Assembly (NCBI RefSeq): GCF_002159915.1
Contig: NZ_NFJP01000003.1
Location: forward strand, 1 to 64,000
Direction: 5' to 3'
Origin: Gordonibacter sp. An230
GTDB taxonomy: Bacteria; Actinomycetota; Coriobacteriia; Coriobacteriales; Eggerthellaceae
Length of the DNA stretch: 64,000 nucleotides
A model generated the notes under the pieces. That model worked only from the letters and a program-made list of their open reading frames with translations, did not search any database and was not told the origin of the DNA. The position numbers were made by a program, and so were the translations under genes. Shown piece by piece: positions 15,299-42,409 of the stretch. The stretch's first letter is position 1. Each line of letters starts with the position of its first letter.

Positions 15299-15314
15299 TA
15301 GTGGCGGGTTTTGA
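15299..15314. repeat. Left arm of interrupted REPIN-like repeat A
   Basis: The sequence TAGTGGCGGGTTTTGA matches the outer arm of repeat B (18694-18710) except at its first bases. The rest of repeat A resumes at 16863, after the IS110 element. Joining the two flanks restores the repeat, so this is one target site split by insertion. Confidence 0.85.
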
Positions 15315-15336: not shown

Positions 15337-16587
15337 CTATTCTGGGTTTCCCCATCTTTCTCCGGCGGACAGGCTCTCGAGCCAGCTCCGGTGCCTTTGG
15401 AGAAGGGGCGCGTCCACGAGGCGCCCCCTTTCCATCTCGCTTATCCGCGCGCTCGCCACGCCGAGGGCGCGGGAGGCCTGGGCCTGCGTGGCCCCGGCTC
15501 TCAGGCGCTCCGACTTGGCCGCCCTCGCCGACGCCCTGTAGGGCTCGCAAGCCGCGTCCGTCGGGCGCACGAGGGCGCCGTACACCTCCCGCGCGATGTA
15601 GCGAACGAGGATGCGCTCGATCTCGCGCCTGCTCTTGCCCTCCTTCGTGCGCTTGTCGACGTACAGCTTCGTGCGGGAGTCCCGCCTCATGCGCTGGCGG
15701 GCGATGGTGTGCAGCGCCCGGTTCGCCTGCCGGTCGCCGCCGCGGTTCAGGCGATGCCGCTTGGCCTTGCCGCTGGAGGCCTCGACGGGGGAGGCTCCGC
15801 AAAGGGAGGCGAACGCCGACTCGCCGCTCACCCTCTCGGGGTTGTCCCCGGCGGTCACGGCGAGCCTCGCGGCGCTTATCGTGCCGCAGCAGTGGATGCC
15901 GGGCAGGGCGGGCGCGTTGGCGAGCAGTATCTCCCTCATGGCCTCCTCGTGGGCCGCGGCCGCCTTCTTCGCGCCGATCCACGACAGCGACAGGGACCGG
16001 AGGGACTCCCAGAGCGACGACTCGACGACGTCGCGGGCCCTGCGCCTGCGGGAGAGCGCCTTCATCAGGGCGGGGGTCTTCATGCCGCCGAGCTCCCCGC
16101 GGATCGGCGCCGGCGCGGTCACGATGAGCGCGTGCGCGGAGTTCGCCGCCCTGGTCGACTCGCTGACGGCGGCGTCGCGCGCGACCATGCGGAACCTGAG
16201 GGCCTCCGCCCAGCCGCCGCCGGCCTTCGGGGTGCCGGACGCCTTGCCGGCCAGGGCGTCCCGCGCGGCCCTCTCCGCGTCGGCCGGGTCGTTCTTGTCC
16301 CGGCCCGCCATCCTCCTCTCGCGCTTGGGCCTCACCGCCTCGACGACGTCGTAGCCCAGCTCTGCGAGCCTCCTGGAGATCCCGGCCCCGTACGAGCCGG
16401 TCCCCTCCACCCCGACCACGACGCAGTCGCGCGGGTCGCCGATCGCCGCGGCGATCCGGTCGTACCCCTCGCCGTCGGCGGCGTACGAGCCGGTCGCCAC
16501 GACGCGGCCGACGAGGTCGATCACGCACAGCGCGTGCGTGTCCTTGTGGGTGTCTATCCCGGCGGCGACCGTCCCTCTCTCGTTCAT
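15337..16587 (-). CDS. IS110-family transposase with C-terminal HTH
   Basis: A 416-residue RNA-guided recombinase. The N-terminal DEDD/RuvC-like domain has GIDTHKDTHALCVID (Asp12), GVEGTGSYG (Glu61) and RDKNDPADAE (Asp100/Asp103). The C-terminal Transposase_20 domain spans about 225-300 with SLCGASPVEASSGKAKRHRL, which carries the candidate catalytic serine (Ser271/Ser272), then NRGGDRQANRAL. Residues about 362-389 form an XRE/Cro-type helix-turn-helix (AGATQAQASRALGVASARIS) beyond the usual end of the family. The start at 16587 has GGAGAGGAGAAGG just upstream. Codon use is as GC-rich as the neighbours. Confidence 0.93.
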   Translation of the reverse strand: MNERGTVAAGIDTHKDTHALCVIDLVGRVVATGSYAADGEGYDRIAAAIGDPRDCVVVGVEGTGSYGAGISRRLAELGYDVVEAVRPKRERRMAGRDKNDPADAERAARDALAGKASGTPKAGGGWAEALRFRMVARDAAVSESTRAANSAHALIVTAPAPIRGELGGMKTPALMKALSRRRRARDVVESSLWESLRSLSLSWIGAKKAAAAHEEAMREILLANAPALPGIHCCGTISAARLAVTAGDNPERVSGESAFASLCGASPVEASSGKAKRHRLNRGGDRQANRALHTIARQRMRRDSRTKLYVDKRTKEGKSRREIERILVRYIAREVYGALVRPTDAACEPYRASARAAKSERLRAGATQAQASRALGVASARISEMERGRLVDAPLLQRHRSWLESLSAGERWGNPE

Positions 16588-16850: not shown

Positions 16851-16862
16851 ACGATTATCAGT

Positions 16863-17007
16863 GACGGAAAACCGCGGTCGAAGGGGGCCGCCGAGGGCGG
16901 CGCCTTCCCGCTGTTTCGTGAAACGCCTGGTCGCGCCCGCGCCCGCGCACCCGCCCATCGCGAGCGCATACGAGCGACCGCGGTTTTCCGTCAAAACCCG
17001 CCACGAA
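16863..17007. repeat. REPIN-like repeat A, main part
   Basis: Begins GACGGAAAACCGCGGTC and ends GACCGCGGTTTTCCGTC followed by AAAACCCGCCACGAA. The two ends are inverted repeats of about 25-30 bp around a G/C-rich core. With the left arm at 15299-15314 restored, the unit is about 160 bp. It is an inverted copy of repeat B at 18694-18853: the A half reading GAAGGGGGCCGCCGAGGGCG is the reverse complement of the right half of B. The architecture, two inverted palindromic REPs with a spacer, is that of a REPIN or MITE. Confidence 0.85.
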
Positions 17008-17693: not shown

Positions 17694-18710
17694 ATGAGAA
17701 CCATCCTCTCCCATACATCGGCCTTGGAGCTCTGGCGGTCGGAGTGGGGCGACTCCGAATCGGCCCGCGCGCGATGCCGTGCGCACGAAGTGCCCCGAAG
17801 CGCGCCGCCATCCCGCGATATGCGCGTCAATCCGTTCGTCCTGGACGGAACCCTGACCCTCCCCGTACACGTGCTTGCGCTCGAAGGCCGCCAAAAAAGC
17901 GCCGCTCTCTCAGCTCATCGGACAGGTCCTTTGCCGGAGGGCTCGCTGCGCGCGCTCGCCCTTCCGGGATGCGACGAACCCCTCTTCGTCACAAGCCCCG
18001 AGCTCACCTTCGTCCACATGGCATCGCTTTTGGGATTCGCGCTCACGGTCCACCTCGGATACGAGCTCTGCGGAACGTACGCGCCCGACGAATCCCAACC
18101 GTTCGGGCTGAGGTCCCGAAAACCCCTCTCCGCTCCGGAGAAACTCGGCTCCTACCTGGACAGGGCGACGGGCATGCGCGGCGCGAAGAAAGCCCGAGTC
18201 GCCCTTCCCCACGTCATAAGGGGGTCGGCCTCACCGCGAGAATCGACGCTCGCCGAGCTCGTCACGCTTCCCTATCTGCGCGGAGGAAGCAGCATCGAGC
18301 ATCCGGTCATGAACGAGGTCCTTCCCATCCCCGCGAGAAATCGCTGGGCGACCGACCGCTCATCGCTGCGCTGCGACCTCCTCTGGCCCGAGAAACGCGT
18401 GGCCGTGGAGTACGACAGCACGCTTTGCCACACCGGAGCCGAGCGCATAGCCGAAGACGCCTCCCGCAAAAACGCGCTCGAAGCCCTCGGCTTCATCGTG
18501 GTGACCGCGACATGGAAGCAGGTGGAGAACTACCGCGAGTACAACCGCTTCGCGAAGGCGCTGGCCAAGCACCTTGGCGGAAGGATCAGGCCAGCTTGCT
18601 CCGACTTTCCCGCTCGCCAGTTCGCGCTCCGCAGGGAGCTGCTCGAACCAATCCGGCCCTCTTTCCCGAGCGCCCAGGCAAGCCGAATGCCCATTCGTGG
18701 CGGGTTTTGA
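17694..18710 (+). CDS. DUF559-like PD-(D/E)XK nuclease-fold protein
   Basis: Encodes 338 residues. The C-terminal region (about 220-285) has SLRCDLLWPEKRVAVEYDS, with Asp near 227 and Glu near 239 in the D-(x)n-ExY arrangement of DUF559/VSR-like PD-(D/E)XK folds, followed by a helix and the strand GFIVVTATW. The N-terminal 200 residues look like the regulator-type domains found with such folds (AbiEi-like), but I cannot assign them firmly. No signal peptide. It lies between two inverted REPIN-like repeats. The last codons and the TGA stop are part of repeat B, so the native C-terminus was probably replaced. Function is unknown; a host-defence or toxin-antitoxin link is only inference. Confidence 0.75.
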   Translation: MRTILSHTSALELWRSEWGDSESARARCRAHEVPRSAPPSRDMRVNPFVLDGTLTLPVHVLALEGRQKSAALSAHRTGPLPEGSLRALALPGCDEPLFVTSPELTFVHMASLLGFALTVHLGYELCGTYAPDESQPFGLRSRKPLSAPEKLGSYLDRATGMRGAKKARVALPHVIRGSASPRESTLAELVTLPYLRGGSSIEHPVMNEVLPIPARNRWATDRSSLRCDLLWPEKRVAVEYDSTLCHTGAERIAEDASRKNALEALGFIVVTATWKQVENYREYNRFAKALAKHLGGRIRPACSDFPARQFALRRELLEPIRPSFPSAQASRMPIRGGF

Positions 18711-18853
18711 CGGAAAACCGTGGTAGCCCGCACGCCCTTGCGGCGTGCGGACGCACGGGCACCGGTGCGACCAGGCATTTCCCGAAGCAGGGAAGAGGCG
18801 CCGCCCTCGGCGGCCCCCTTCGACCGCGGTTTTCCGTCAAAACCCGCCACGAA
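18694..18853. repeat. REPIN-like repeat B (intact)
   Basis: A 160-bp unit bounded by TTCGTGGCGGGTTTTGACGG at the left and its inverted copy at the right, ending at 18853. It is inverted relative to repeat A. It overlaps the last 17 bases of the DUF559-like gene, giving that gene the codons for Arg-Gly-Gly-Phe and the stop. The internal spacer contains further small palindromes (CCGCACGCC.../GGCGTGCGG). Confidence 0.85.
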
Positions 18854-19197
18854 GCAAGGGCATCTCTGTCAAACCAGGATTGACATAGGCCAGATCGGCC
18901 CCGCCGCGCGCGGATCGCCCAGATGCCTCGGAAGCCCCCGATCCGTCAGGCGGGAACCTTGCGGGGCGCCCGACCAGAGGGGTCTAGCTCGGATCTAGAG
19001 GAACATGGGTTCGTATCGATCCTGATTTAACAGAGACGAAAGGTTGAGCGCGCGAACGCCGACAAATGGAACCTCCCGCTCGGTTGCGAGGCCAAGAGCA
19101 CCGCGCCCGCGCCAAGCGGTCTGCACGCCAAAACGCCCCGAAGCGCAAAACACCGTCGAACCATCGCCCCTTCTGCACCGACGAAGCGCAAACGTCC
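18854..19197. other. Gene-free stretch downstream of repeat B
   Basis: About 340 bp. One TTGACA occurs at 18880-18885 without a matching -10. No credible coding frame and no RNA gene recognised. Confidence 0.5.
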
Positions 19198-38955: not shown

Positions 38956-40713
38956 TCAGGTTTCCCGCAAGCGCGCTTCGAGGGCGTCGTTGATGATTTT
39001 GAGCGCCTCGACGCGGGCGCGGCGCTTGTCGTCGCTCTCGAGCACTATCCAGGGGGCGATGGGCGTGGACGTGAGGCGCAGCATATCGTCCACCGCGGCT
39101 TGGTACTGGGGGCGCTTGTCGCGGTTGCGCCAGTCCTCGTCGGTGATCTTCCACCTTTTGGCGGGATCCTCCTCGCGGTCGCGAAAGCGGCGCAGCTGCT
39201 CTTCGGGGCTCACGTCCACCCAGAACTTCAGCAGGATGGCACCCCAACGCACCAACTCGCGCTCGAATTCGTTGATCTCGTCATAGGCGCGCGTCCATTC
39301 AGCCACCGACGCGAAGCCCTCCACGCGCTCCACGAGCACGCGTCCGTACCAGCTGCGGTCGTAGATGCCCACGTGGCCCGCTTTCGGCAACCGTGTCCAG
39401 TAGCGCCACAGGTGCGGGTGCAGAAGCTCGGGCTTGGTGGGGGCGGGGCTGGGGAAGATGGTGTAGGCGCGCGCGTCGAGCGCCTGGGCCACGCGCTTGA
39501 TGTTGCCACCCTTGCCGGCCGCGTCCCATCCTTCGTACATGAGCATGAGGGGGATGCGCTTTTGGTACATCTCCATCTCCAGCCGGTTGAGGCGTTTCTG
39601 CTGCTCCTTGAGCTCACGCTTGTAGACTTCCGGGTCGAGGGCGGGCGCGCTGTCCTTTCCATCGGCCTCCGGCGGGTCGGGCAGAAGACGGAAGCGCGAC
39701 GCGCGCGGGGCGCGGGCGCTTGCCTCGGCCGCGGCGCGCTCGGCCTCCTCGAGGACGCGCGCCGCCTCCTCGGGCGTGCGCTCTGCGCACGAAGCGCCCG
39801 CCAGCGCGCCGGCCGAGTTCGCCTGCGCCTTCGCTGCGGCTTGGGCGGCCTCGGCATCGGGCGCCGCCGCGAGCGCGGCTTCGAGCGCGTCGACAAGCGT
39901 TTTCGCTATCTCGAGGTTCGCACGGCGCTTGTCCTCTCCGTTGACCAGGTGCCACGGCGCATAGGAGAAATCGCTTCCTTCGAGCAGGTTGTCGTAGAGG
40001 CGGTAAGCCTCCTCGTAGGCGTCGACGCTCGCCAGCTTGCGCTCGTCCACACGCCAGCGCGTGGCGGGATCGTCGTGCAGACGGACGAGGCGCTTTCTCT
40101 GCGCCTCCTTCGTGACGTGCACGAAGAACTTCGTCACGAGATAGCCGTCGTCGACGAGCTGCCGCTCGAAGTCGGCCGCCGAGGTGAGCGCACGACGCAG
40201 CGAGTCGATGTGGCGCTCGTCGCGCGCCTCGGCGATGGCCTCGGCCATCGGCTTCCTCTCCCCCTTCGCGTTCTTGCTCCCCTCGGCGCTGCGACCGCCC
40301 AGCACAAGATCGCCGTACTCGGCATAGAGCATGCGCTGGGTGGCGACGGTGTACCAGCCGCGGTCGTAGAACGTGATGGTGCCGCGCATGCCGAGCGTCT
40401 GCCAGAACTGCTGCATGGCGGGATAGAAGCCGGTGACGCCGTACTCGGCCCCCGCAAAGGCGCGCGCGGCCTCCACGTCGAGGTTCTCGGTGACGTGCAC
40501 GCTCGTGGCGCGCGCGTCGAGATGGTACATCAGATCGGAGATGCGGCTTCCCTTGCCGGCGCCGTCCCACCCCTCGAACAGCACGACGAGGCCCACACCC
40601 CGTTCGCGCGCTTGCTGCTGCAGCACGACCAGGCGCTTCATGAGCGCATCGCGCTGCTGTCGGTACTCTTCTTTCGGCAGCGGCGCAAGCGAGAAGTCGA
40701 CGGTTTCCAGCAT
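38956..40713 (-). CDS. Double-domain PPK2, probable polyphosphate:AMP phosphotransferase
   Basis: Encodes 585 residues with two PPK2 P-loop kinase domains in tandem. The first (about 1-240) has LFEGWDGAGKGSRI as Walker A and TFYDRGWYTVATQ as Walker B/lid. The second (about 350-585) has MYEGWDAAGKGGNI and GIYDRSWYGRVLVERVEG. An Ala/Glu-rich linker joins them. Two-domain PPK2 proteins (class II, PAP) phosphorylate AMP to ADP with polyphosphate. The ATG at 40713 has GAAAGGACG upstream; the longer open frame upstream is noise. It is divergent from ppx-ppk1 across 760 bp, so the locus is devoted to polyphosphate turnover. Confidence 0.93.
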   Translation of the reverse strand: MLETVDFSLAPLPKEEYRQQRDALMKRLVVLQQQARERGVGLVVLFEGWDGAGKGSRISDLMYHLDARATSVHVTENLDVEAARAFAGAEYGVTGFYPAMQQFWQTLGMRGTITFYDRGWYTVATQRMLYAEYGDLVLGGRSAEGSKNAKGERKPMAEAIAEARDERHIDSLRRALTSAADFERQLVDDGYLVTKFFVHVTKEAQRKRLVRLHDDPATRWRVDERKLASVDAYEEAYRLYDNLLEGSDFSYAPWHLVNGEDKRRANLEIAKTLVDALEAALAAAPDAEAAQAAAKAQANSAGALAGASCAERTPEEAARVLEEAERAAAEASARAPRASRFRLLPDPPEADGKDSAPALDPEVYKRELKEQQKRLNRLEMEMYQKRIPLMLMYEGWDAAGKGGNIKRVAQALDARAYTIFPSPAPTKPELLHPHLWRYWTRLPKAGHVGIYDRSWYGRVLVERVEGFASVAEWTRAYDEINEFERELVRWGAILLKFWVDVSPEEQLRRFRDREEDPAKRWKITDEDWRNRDKRPQYQAAVDDMLRLTSTPIAPWIVLESDDKRRARVEALKIINDALEARLRET

Positions 40714-40919
40714 GGCTCGTCCTTTCTCCGGTAGCCCGGCCATCATACCACAGGGGCGGGCCGACCCCGACTCGCAGGGAAAGAGCCGGAAATGCGGAAA
40801 CGCAGGGAATCGCAAGCGCAACGTGAGAGCGGATGCGCGAGCGCAACTCAAGAACGCGGAGGAGCAAACGCCTGACCCCGCCGCGCGCATCCATCCCGTG
40901 CGGACTGTTCGTCGCGAAA

Positions 40920-41060
40920 TGGCCACGGATCGGTGTTCTGGCACGAAATGCACCCGCCCGGGCACGACCTCCAGTTCGCCACCTGGGGATTCGCCATCTT
41001 CTCTCCCCCTCTTCGCATGGAAAGCGCCGAAATCCGTGCCAGAACGCCGATCCGTGGCCA
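40920..41060. repeat. REPIN-like inverted repeat element, type 2
   Basis: The left arm TGGCCACGGATCGGTGTTCT continuing GGCACGAA (40920-40947) and the right arm 41033-41060 are inverted copies of each other with two or three mismatches over 28 bp, separated by 85 bp. Size (141 bp) and plan resemble repeats A and B, but the arm sequence is unrelated. Confidence 0.8.
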
Positions 41061-41165
41061 AAAAACCGCTCGCCCGCTGCACGCCAGAGGGCCACGCGCC
41101 CGCATCGCCCCCTCTCGCCTGGAAGACTCCACAATCCGACCTAACGGAAGAGAGCGGAGAACGCC

Positions 41166-41176
41166 GGGGGGGGGGG
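41166..41176. repeat. Homopolymer of 11 G
   Basis: Eleven consecutive G residues in non-coding DNA about 190 bp upstream of the ppx -35. Tracts of this length are prone to length change by slippage. Confidence 0.85.
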
Positions 41177-41361
41177 CGATCGGACGCATGTCGGCAGAAG
41201 CTCGGCGGAAGAAGACGCGTGCGCGAGCGCGAAAGGACAGCTGCAGCGAAGACTGGACCGCGACCGGGCAAGCTCCCCTCGTGCCCGCACCCTCAGCGCA
41301 CGGCCACCGACGCCTCTCCATCAAGCCCCGGTAAAATCTTGGCGGCAATCCGTCAGCGCGC

Positions 41362-41391
41362 TTTGCGCGACGGGCGCGGGTTCTTTAGAAT
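41362..41391 (+). promoter_or_regulatory. Possible ppx-ppk1 promoter
   Basis: TTTGCG (41362-41367), an 18-bp spacer and TAGAAT (41386-41391); start expected near 41398, 76 nt before the ppx ATG. Confidence 0.4.
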
Positions 41392-41473
41392 GGAATCGTT
41401 GAGCGAGCCGCGCAGCGTCCGAGGAGGCGACGCGCAGCCGCAGAACGCGAAGCGCAAGAGACAAGGAAGCACC

Positions 41474-42409
41474 ATGCCCAACTACGGAGTCGTCGACCTC
41501 GGATCGAACTCCATCCGCCTCGTCGTGTACGAGGTGAAAGACGACCGCCTGACCGCGTACACGAACCGCGACTTCAAAAGCCTCGCCAACGACAAGGTGA
41601 TGGCGGGGCTCGCGGCCTACGTGGAGAACGGAGCATTCACACAGGCCGGCATCGAGAAGGCCGCGAGCGTGCTCAAGGGCCACGCGAAGCGGGCGCGCTT
41701 CTACCGCTGCAAGCGCCTCGAGGTGTTCGCCACCGCCGTGCTGCGCAACGCGACGAACCGCGCCGAGGCCGTTGCCGCCATCGAGGACGCGAGCGGGCTG
41801 CCCATCAACCTGCTGTCCGCTCGCGACGAGGCGCACCTCGGCTTCGTCGGCGCCACGTGCGACCGCTCGGTGAAACGCGGCACGCTCGTGGACATCGGCG
41901 GCGGATCCACCGAGCTCACGCGCATCGAGAACGGGCGCGACTTCGACGACGCGAGCATAGGCCAAGGATCGCTCTCGTCGTTCGCCGCGCACGTGCGATC
42001 CATCCTGCCCACCGGACCCGAGATGGACGCCATCGCCGCCGAGCTGCTTGGACGTCTGGCCGAGCTACCACAGGCCGAGGCGTACCGCGCCGAAACGCTC
42101 TTCGGCATCGGGGGCAGCGTCCGCGCCGCCGCCAAGATGCTCGCACAGACCGCAGGCGGGGGCGCTCGCCCAAAAACCATGACGCCCGACGACGTTCGTG
42201 CCATACTGCACTGGTGCCGCGTCGACCCCGACGCGTTCGCGCATACGGCGCTCAAGGCCTCTGCCGAGCGTATCCACACGCTCGTGCCGGGCTGCGTCAT
42301 CCTCCTCGCGCTGTTCGAGGCCTTCGAAGCCAAGCGCCTGGAGATCTGCAAATACGGCGTGCGCGAGGGCTACCTCATCGAGCGCATGCTGTCGCCGTCG
42401 GCGCGTTGA
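41474..42409 (+). CDS. ppx: Exopolyphosphatase (Ppx/GppA family)
   Basis: Encodes 311 residues, the short two-domain actin-like form without the HD-type C-terminal domains of E. coli Ppx. Motifs: VVDLGSNSIRLVVYEV (phosphate 1 loop), VFATAVLRNATNR, GTLVDIGGGSTELTRIENG (phosphate 2 loop), and LFGIGGSVRAAAKML. It removes terminal phosphate from polyphosphate or acts on (p)ppGpp. AAGGAAGC precedes the ATG. The ppk1 gene starts 36 bp downstream in the same direction, so synthesis and breakdown enzymes share an operon. Confidence 0.95.
   Translation: MPNYGVVDLGSNSIRLVVYEVKDDRLTAYTNRDFKSLANDKVMAGLAAYVENGAFTQAGIEKAASVLKGHAKRARFYRCKRLEVFATAVLRNATNRAEAVAAIEDASGLPINLLSARDEAHLGFVGATCDRSVKRGTLVDIGGGSTELTRIENGRDFDDASIGQGSLSSFAAHVRSILPTGPEMDAIAAELLGRLAELPQAEAYRAETLFGIGGSVRAAAKMLAQTAGGGARPKTMTPDDVRAILHWCRVDPDAFAHTALKASAERIHTLVPGCVILLALFEAFEAKRLEICKYGVREGYLIERMLSPSAR

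Follow-up and report, generated by a model that had tools for sequence, protein, structure and literature searches.

Dispersed inverted repeats with a common core and helically quantised lengths in Rubneribacter badeniensis and its relatives

The inverted repeat upstream of ppx in the window (the whole stretch of DNA analysed, 64 kb in length) is one copy of a family whose members have an oriented core and outer boxes in common, come in lengths quantised in helical turns and, in some paralogues, carry an inverted interior; among the Rubneribacter copies, the two arms also agree mainly at a central block. In kind, it belongs with the dispersed palindromic intergenic repeats, which are common and mostly unexplained; the phasing, the common core with exchangeable arms, the arm agreement and the inverted interiors set it apart. 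The best explanation, to which a probability of roughly 40% is given, is that each copy is a dispersed, invertible and helically phased nucleoprotein module with paired tyrosine-type recombinase sites. Helical spacing and arm-matched variants preserved in the sequence point to a DNA-protein synapse, and the mechanism is directly testable. If this reading is true, the chromosomes of these gut bacteria hold dozens of potential inversion sites.

The ppx-upstream element, its copies and their common core

The element occupies positions 40920-41060 (141 bp), and its inverted-repeat arms end at exactly the coordinates given in the first-pass annotation (Table 1). The best arms are 26 nt each, 96% complementary (one mismatch) and 89 nt apart; the 28-bp arms and 85-bp core described earlier give the same overall extent and correspond to longer, less perfect arms. 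The pair ranks third among the 30 inverted-repeat pairs listed for the window, and the predicted fold of its DNA reaches -41 kcal/mol, as compared with -22.9 ± 2.8 in 200 shuffles (z = -6.5). The conserved unit of this copy extends beyond the 141 bp to about 187 bp including the outer boxes, with conservation ending near -24. The element lies between ppx and a divergent gene for a PPK2-type polyphosphate kinase, a gene context that confirms its placement upstream of ppx. Over 40700-41500, neither an Rfam match at E ≤ 1 nor a sigma-70-like promoter was found, and no terminator-like site falls on the element, the two that were found lying at 41357-41380.

Table 1. Coordinates of the window element and of repeats A and B in the 64-kb window.
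Feature	Position	Strand	Remarks
Left outer box, CGTGC	40897-40901		Family consensus CRTGC, -23 to -19 from the arm; profile of 124 half-elements
AT-rich patch beside the arm, GAAA in this copy	40916-40919		Family WWWW at -4 to -1
Left arm, 26 nt, TGGCCACGGATCGGTGTTCTGGCACG	40920-40945	-	Inverted-repeat pair
Left-arm positions 8-13, GATCGG	40928-40933		Block where variants tend to agree between the arms of an element
Oriented core GCCACCTGGGGATTCGCC	40978-40995	+	Core match begins 60 nt after the left-arm start
Right arm, 26 nt, CGTGCCAGAACGCCGATCCGTGGCCA	41035-41060	+	Inverted-repeat pair
Right-arm positions 8-13, CCGATC	41047-41052		Reverse complement of 40928-40933
Right outer box, GCACG	41079-41083		Profile of 124 half-elements
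Repeat A	16862-16993	-	Arms of a different type, core shared (16932, minus strand); an IS110-type element appears to interrupt the left arm
Repeat B	18694-18853	+	Other arms, same core (18769)

A similarity search with the 141 bp returned many more arms in the same genome, which pair into elements of 140-162 bp (three loci from this search, L024, L026 and L027, contain no arm). A covariance model built from 15 elements recovered 23 distinct loci at E ≤ 1e-6, with weaker ones beyond; 19 of these carry window-type arms, the 15 model members included, and the other four carry another arm type. This genome-wide count of 19 disposes of a single occurrence, the outcome that would have told against a repeat family, and agrees with the earlier proposal of a dispersed family built like repeats A and B with different arms. 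Among 21 genomes, the model matched eight at E ≤ 0.001, the genome of origin counted, the closest being that of Rubneribacter badeniensis, whose ppx is 96% identical to that of the window; these two results together indicate that the window genome is probably that of a Rubneribacter-like species. The ppx-upstream copy has a counterpart at the corresponding site in R. badeniensis, position 5 being changed in both arms of the window element relative to this orthologue, and of the 37 ppx loci examined this R. badeniensis locus alone gave a model match.

In total, 63 elements with these arms were parsed, 15 in this genome (G000) and 48 in R. badeniensis ResAG-85 (G001), 36 of them non-redundant; C45:99 kb, C26, C19 and C11 of this genome and L147 of R. 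badeniensis fell outside the arm filter. In a genome of another genus (G006), 44 distinct loci were examined (49 entries less 5 duplicates), of which 19 form family i and 15 family ii, the rest having other arms, and in genome G002 an arm pair was obtained for 28 of 29 loci. Viral contigs scanned with the arm gave nothing. The copies constitute a dispersed family of palindromic intergenic repeats, and open-licence PMC text yielded no paper that describes it.

A profile of 124 half-elements, centred on the arm TGGCCACGAAACCGCGTTCTGGCACG, places CRTGC at -23 to -19, an A-rich stretch at -14 to -12 and an AT-rich one at -4 to -1 on the outward side, and AT-rich and T-rich positions at +27/28 and +37/38, respectively, on the inward side, with AT patches returning about every 10 bp, roughly symmetrically around each arm. 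In the middle of the element, 57 aligned cores yield an oriented consensus of roughly CGACCTGGGNTTTY. The core pattern SRCCWGGSNWWW is present in 56 of the 63 window-arm elements, in all 19 elements of G006 family i, all 15 of family ii and 24 of the 28 in G002, as against 3 of 120 flanking segments used as controls. It has seven matches on the two strands of the 64 kb, three of them within repeat A, repeat B and the window element, where its distance from the arm is comparable, and the same core occurs with at least six more arm types in this genome and its relatives. The covariance model of the window family does not detect repeats A and B, and therefore their relation to the window element rests on core and layout. 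Since the oriented core is shared and its distance from the arm is comparable, the description of the window element as unrelated to them cannot be upheld, although the arms do differ.

Several other arm families whose core is identical or similar to this one were noted in this genome (L053:693-844, L059:988-1107, L060:1026-1160, L065:1031-1208 and others), some of them with perfect arms of 27-30 nt. A palindromic repeat of approximately TGTYAAACCNNNRTTGACA adjoins repeat B at 18867-18885 and is met again beside numerous G002 elements, in their flanks (L315, L316, L324 and others), possibly as a component of a larger composite repeat.

Lengths, arm agreement and orientation of the interior

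The first copies were picked by arm similarity, without selection for length. The 63 elements nevertheless measure 138-143 bp (32 elements), 150-152 bp (27) or 162 bp (4), and their core starts at 59/60, 70 or 81. Lengths of 152/153, 162-164 and 174 bp were found in G006 family i (n = 19), and of 154 and 164/165 bp in family ii (n = 15), whereas all 28 elements of G002 are 159 bp long and show no length classes. Row L291 (212 bp) was excluded from family i as false in the length-phase, orientation and arm-agreement tests. Not one of 3,000 simulations that drew lengths uniformly attained the phase concentration of the sets of 36 Rubneribacter and 19 and 15 G006 elements, which are non-redundant or nearly so. 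This concentration peaks at periods of 10.5-11 bp, the peak being broad because each set holds only two or three length classes. By eye, the close paralogues L082 and L094 are one exact 10-bp duplication apart. Whole-turn spacing is a mark of proteins on double-stranded DNA that need to face each other, whereas single-strand hairpins would not need such phasing.

Tyrosine recombinases need a short central block that matches between their two sites. Among the 36 non-redundant Rubneribacter elements, left and right arm agree at position 11 in 35 cases (24.8 expected), at position 13 in 34 (24.7 expected), at position 8 in 30 (22.3 expected) and at position 6 in 32 (27.8 expected; p 0.001), more weakly at positions 10, 12 and 15 (p about 0.08), and without excess at the variable positions 7, 14, 16, 18 and 25. 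In the redundant set of 63, positions 5, 10, 12 and 15 also pass 0.05. If selection acted on arm pairing, agreement would be expected at every variable arm position, and the omission of 14, 16, 18 and 25 speaks against whole-arm hairpin pairing or palindrome correction. The agreement at the central block in the Rubneribacter family would fit the requirement of a tyrosine-recombinase site.

The other families depart from this pattern in part. Agreement in G006 family i (18 elements) takes in positions 5-7, 9, 10, 12, 14 and 15, a block 11 positions wide, and leaves out 25 and 26. In family ii (13 elements), positions 11 and 13 agree, as does the outermost position 0 (11 of 13, p 0.002), and in the 28 closely related elements of G002 the agreement is found at positions 0 and 2 (p 0.002 and 0.008, respectively), the arm centre being weak (p 0.007 at position 13, 0.09 at 14 and 0.05 at 15). 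A central block would explain neither the wider block of family i, nor the outer positions of family ii and G002, nor position 6 in Rubneribacter. The outer positions weaken the argument from the central block, a loss that is partly offset by the xerD neighbourhood described below.

The orientation of the interior relative to the flanks was compared over 24 nt on either side, for which the highest background score was 34 among 1,838 pairs. The flanks of L094 match those of L012/L082 at the maximum score, 48 of 48, with the interior reversed, and the same is seen for L110 against L012/L082 (flank score 40) and for L112 against L113 (38). Altogether 19 pairs have similar interiors and unambiguous flanks: 13 are concordant, comprising 8 orthologous pairs between this genome and R. 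badeniensis and 5 others, and 6 are reversed, which corresponds to approximately three events (L012/L082 against L094 and L110; L112 against L113; and L109 against L142, the weakest, with a flank score of 25). Of the 40 unambiguous pairs in G002, 32 are concordant and 8 are reversed. With 75-nt flanks, 8 of its 28 elements were assigned as reversed relative to composite flanks, by margins that have no null distribution and that are clear for L313 (16.1) and L309 (14.7), less strong for L312 (9.7) and L096 (8.8), and between 1.1 and 5.9 for the remaining four. The single unambiguous pair in G006 is concordant, and no unambiguous reversed pair was seen there.

Between this genome and R. badeniensis, all eight orthologous pairs with alignable interiors keep their orientation, and a ninth locus does so by eye. 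Five more orthologous loci have matching flanks and interiors too diverged for orientation to be judged by sequence; of these, L022/L140 may have the opposite orientation, though as a candidate it is weak (score 28 versus 13, one flank aligned). Active flipping would give about half discordant orthologues, and the eight of eight that are concordant therefore argue against a fast phase switch. Inversion has thus occurred in the history of the family, yet is rare at any given locus. In the paralogue pairs L109/L131 and L139/L143, shared sequence stops inside one arm, as judged by eye.

Explanations and candidate enzymes

In the preferred explanation, a module of about 190-210 bp would consist of two inverted 26-bp arms that enclose an oriented core and are each accompanied by a box on the outside, whole-turn spacing allowing the proteins on arms, core and boxes to meet on one face of the DNA. 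We infer from the sequences that a recombinase, probably of the tyrosine type, would act on the arms, each of which would be a crossover site made up of two conserved half-sites flanking a central block, about 6 bp long, that matches the block of its partner. Recombination of arm with arm would flip the intervening segment, the synapse being shaped by bending or accessory proteins bound to the core and the outer boxes; at any one locus such events would have to be rare. An extension of this reading, possible but doubtful, is an Eggerthellaceae superfamily with one core and one phased layout, in which many interchangeable arm families would each have their own recombinase and a common core-bending partner, and dozens of sites would form defined synapses, invert locally and swap arms.

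No recombinase was found, among the tyrosine recombinases searched, that tracks the family or could be named as its enzyme; nor did the analysis find a route by which copies reach new loci or a regulatory effect on ppx. Of the 15 tyrosine-recombinase matches in this genome, 14 loci were scanned, and only xerD, an XerC/D-type gene, has a window-type element beside it; both here and in R. badeniensis, an element is located downstream of this xerD-like gene (loci L206 and L207). At the xerD loci of six other genomes, the covariance model detected no element. XerD-like genes are present in all eight genomes searched, with and without window-type arms, and these distributions would neither support nor exclude XerD as the enzyme. 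A XerA-like enzyme (L069) was also considered as the recombinase of the family and set aside: it is 94% identical in R. badeniensis, yet occurs at 54-66% identity in relatives that lack window-type arms.

The strongest of the alternatives, less likely than the preferred explanation yet a serious rival to it, is a passively mobilised palindrome of the REPIN or MITE type, copied in trans by a transposase, with template switching between the arms occasionally inverting the interior. The high copy number, intergenic sites and palindromic build are what such a process would leave behind, as are lineage expansions of near-identical copies (L111 and L116, for example, have interiors that are 100% identical) and the single homologous 159-bp body common to the 28 G002 copies; agreement at the outer arm positions in G006 family ii and G002 would likewise fit general arm-to-arm copying. 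This genome also encodes one RAYT (NF047646; L010:3233-4051, on contig C72), a narrow pass at 83.7 bits against a cut-off of 80, the gene upstream of which is presumably ffh-like. However, no window-arm element was found in the 3.2 kb and 3.9 kb scanned to its two sides, and in the 96%-complete draft of R. badeniensis, in which most copies were parsed, no RAYT was found; the sole Y1 transposase found there is an IS200/IS605 enzyme, scoring 147 bits with that model (cut-off 55) and 31 bits with the RAYT model (cut-off 80). A RAYT is thus disfavoured as the mobiliser, and of the earlier label 'REPIN-like' the shape is retained and the association with a RAYT is given up. Other observations that sit badly with passive mobilisation are the core common to otherwise unrelated arm families, the several variable Rubneribacter arm positions that lack agreement, and the helical phasing, which is unexpected for mobility through single-strand hairpins. 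Nor was a target-site duplication seen by eye in the flanks of 13 copies from this genome and 28 from G002.

Insertion sequences were examined in the same connection. This genome has two IS110-type matches, one of which is the gene at 15337-16587 of the window (minus strand), located between the A-type arm halves GTGGCGGGTTTTG at 15301 and TGACGGAAAACCG at 16862. The element appears to have inserted into repeat A, splitting its arm, an arrangement that would fit the idea of A-type arms as IS110 targets. Neither match is in or beside a window-arm element, the second having only a chance-level upstream hit (E = 1.2). The suggestion that the two kinds of arm serve as targets for two IS types is thus compatible with the data for the A-type arm and not supported for the window-type arm.

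An architectural site, in which phased arms, core and boxes would be wrapped by a nucleoid protein or gyrase and no recombination would occur, is considered less probable again, though still a serious rival. Enterobacterial BIMEs offer an analogue for such wrapped sites. The quantised lengths, the AT patches about 10 bp apart and an overall length near 140-200 bp are all compatible with wrapping, and so are the preservation of place and orientation in orthologous copies and the varied gene neighbourhoods: by rough gene calling at 36 loci, 13 are tandem, 4 convergent and 2 divergent, 15 are unresolved and 2, the window copy among them, were wrongly called inside an open frame. Wrapping leaves unexplained, however, the agreement of arm variants within elements, the inverted interiors and the strong divergence of arms between families. 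A hairpin of RNA or DNA carrying a conserved motif in its loop (a terminator, processing site or structured RNA) has the strong predicted fold and the covarying arm positions in its favour and is very improbable, since positions 7, 14, 16, 18 and 25 vary without covariation in the Rubneribacter family, the lengths follow the helical turns of DNA, and the element has neither an Rfam family at E ≤ 1 nor a terminator-like site.

Relation to known repeats and local turnover

Among known systems, dif/pdif modules are XerC/XerD sites in inverse orientation, and the present element resembles them in having short, inversely oriented candidate recombination sites around a segment. Xer sites have a 6-bp central block. 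Those modules differ in carrying genes, and the link to Xer consists here of the position of a single element, downstream of xerD, in the two Rubneribacter genomes; we take the window-type arms to be unlike the dif consensus.

Invertons, as presented in PMC11892184, are invertible segments between inverted repeats of 10-40 nt, with a median of 14 per Actinobacteriota genome. The element likewise has inverted repeats, of 26 nt, flanking a short segment that is found in both orientations relative to the flanks among paralogues. It differs from invertons in that the eight clear orthologues all have the same orientation, the copies are many and dispersed, the window copy has no promoter-like site, and no dedicated invertase was found among the tyrosine recombinases, apart from the position downstream of xerD. 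The main text of PMC11892184 contains no occurrence of Eggerthella or Gordonibacter.

A REPIN is, according to Bertels and Rainey (2011, PMC3116915), a pair of inverted REPs. Two inverted palindromic repeats able to form a hairpin are present in the element, and the likeness extends to the spacer between them, the many intergenic copies and the compensatory changes described in that text. A RAYT flanked by the repeats was found neither in the 3.2-3.9 kb flanks of the gene in this genome nor in the R. badeniensis draft, and the core common to several arm families, the quantised lengths and the non-covarying arm positions are further differences. The GTAG/CGTC-tagged REP dimers and TIR repeats of PMC3733652, some of which lack a dedicated transposase according to that article, are similarly short intergenic palindromic dimers. 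Neither tag, as defined there, appears in the arm and flank profile of the 124 half-elements, and 'Actinobacteri' has no occurrence in the main text of that article.

Comparison of R. badeniensis regions L235 and L236 with this genome yielded no clean empty site. Region L236 contains one locus where the orthologous element is still in place and a second where other repeats have taken over the intergenic DNA; L235 has little DNA orthologous with this genome. Turnover of orthologous intergenic DNA was noted between G000:C45:90980-91991 and G001:C88:9842-10251, where R. badeniensis has an element and this genome has other sequence, approximately 1 kb long, in which further inverted repeats occur. 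Nine R. badeniensis copies start no more than about 300 bp from a contig start (contigs 12, 19, 32, 39, 45, 48, 79, 83 and 138), as would be expected if the repeats break the assembly.
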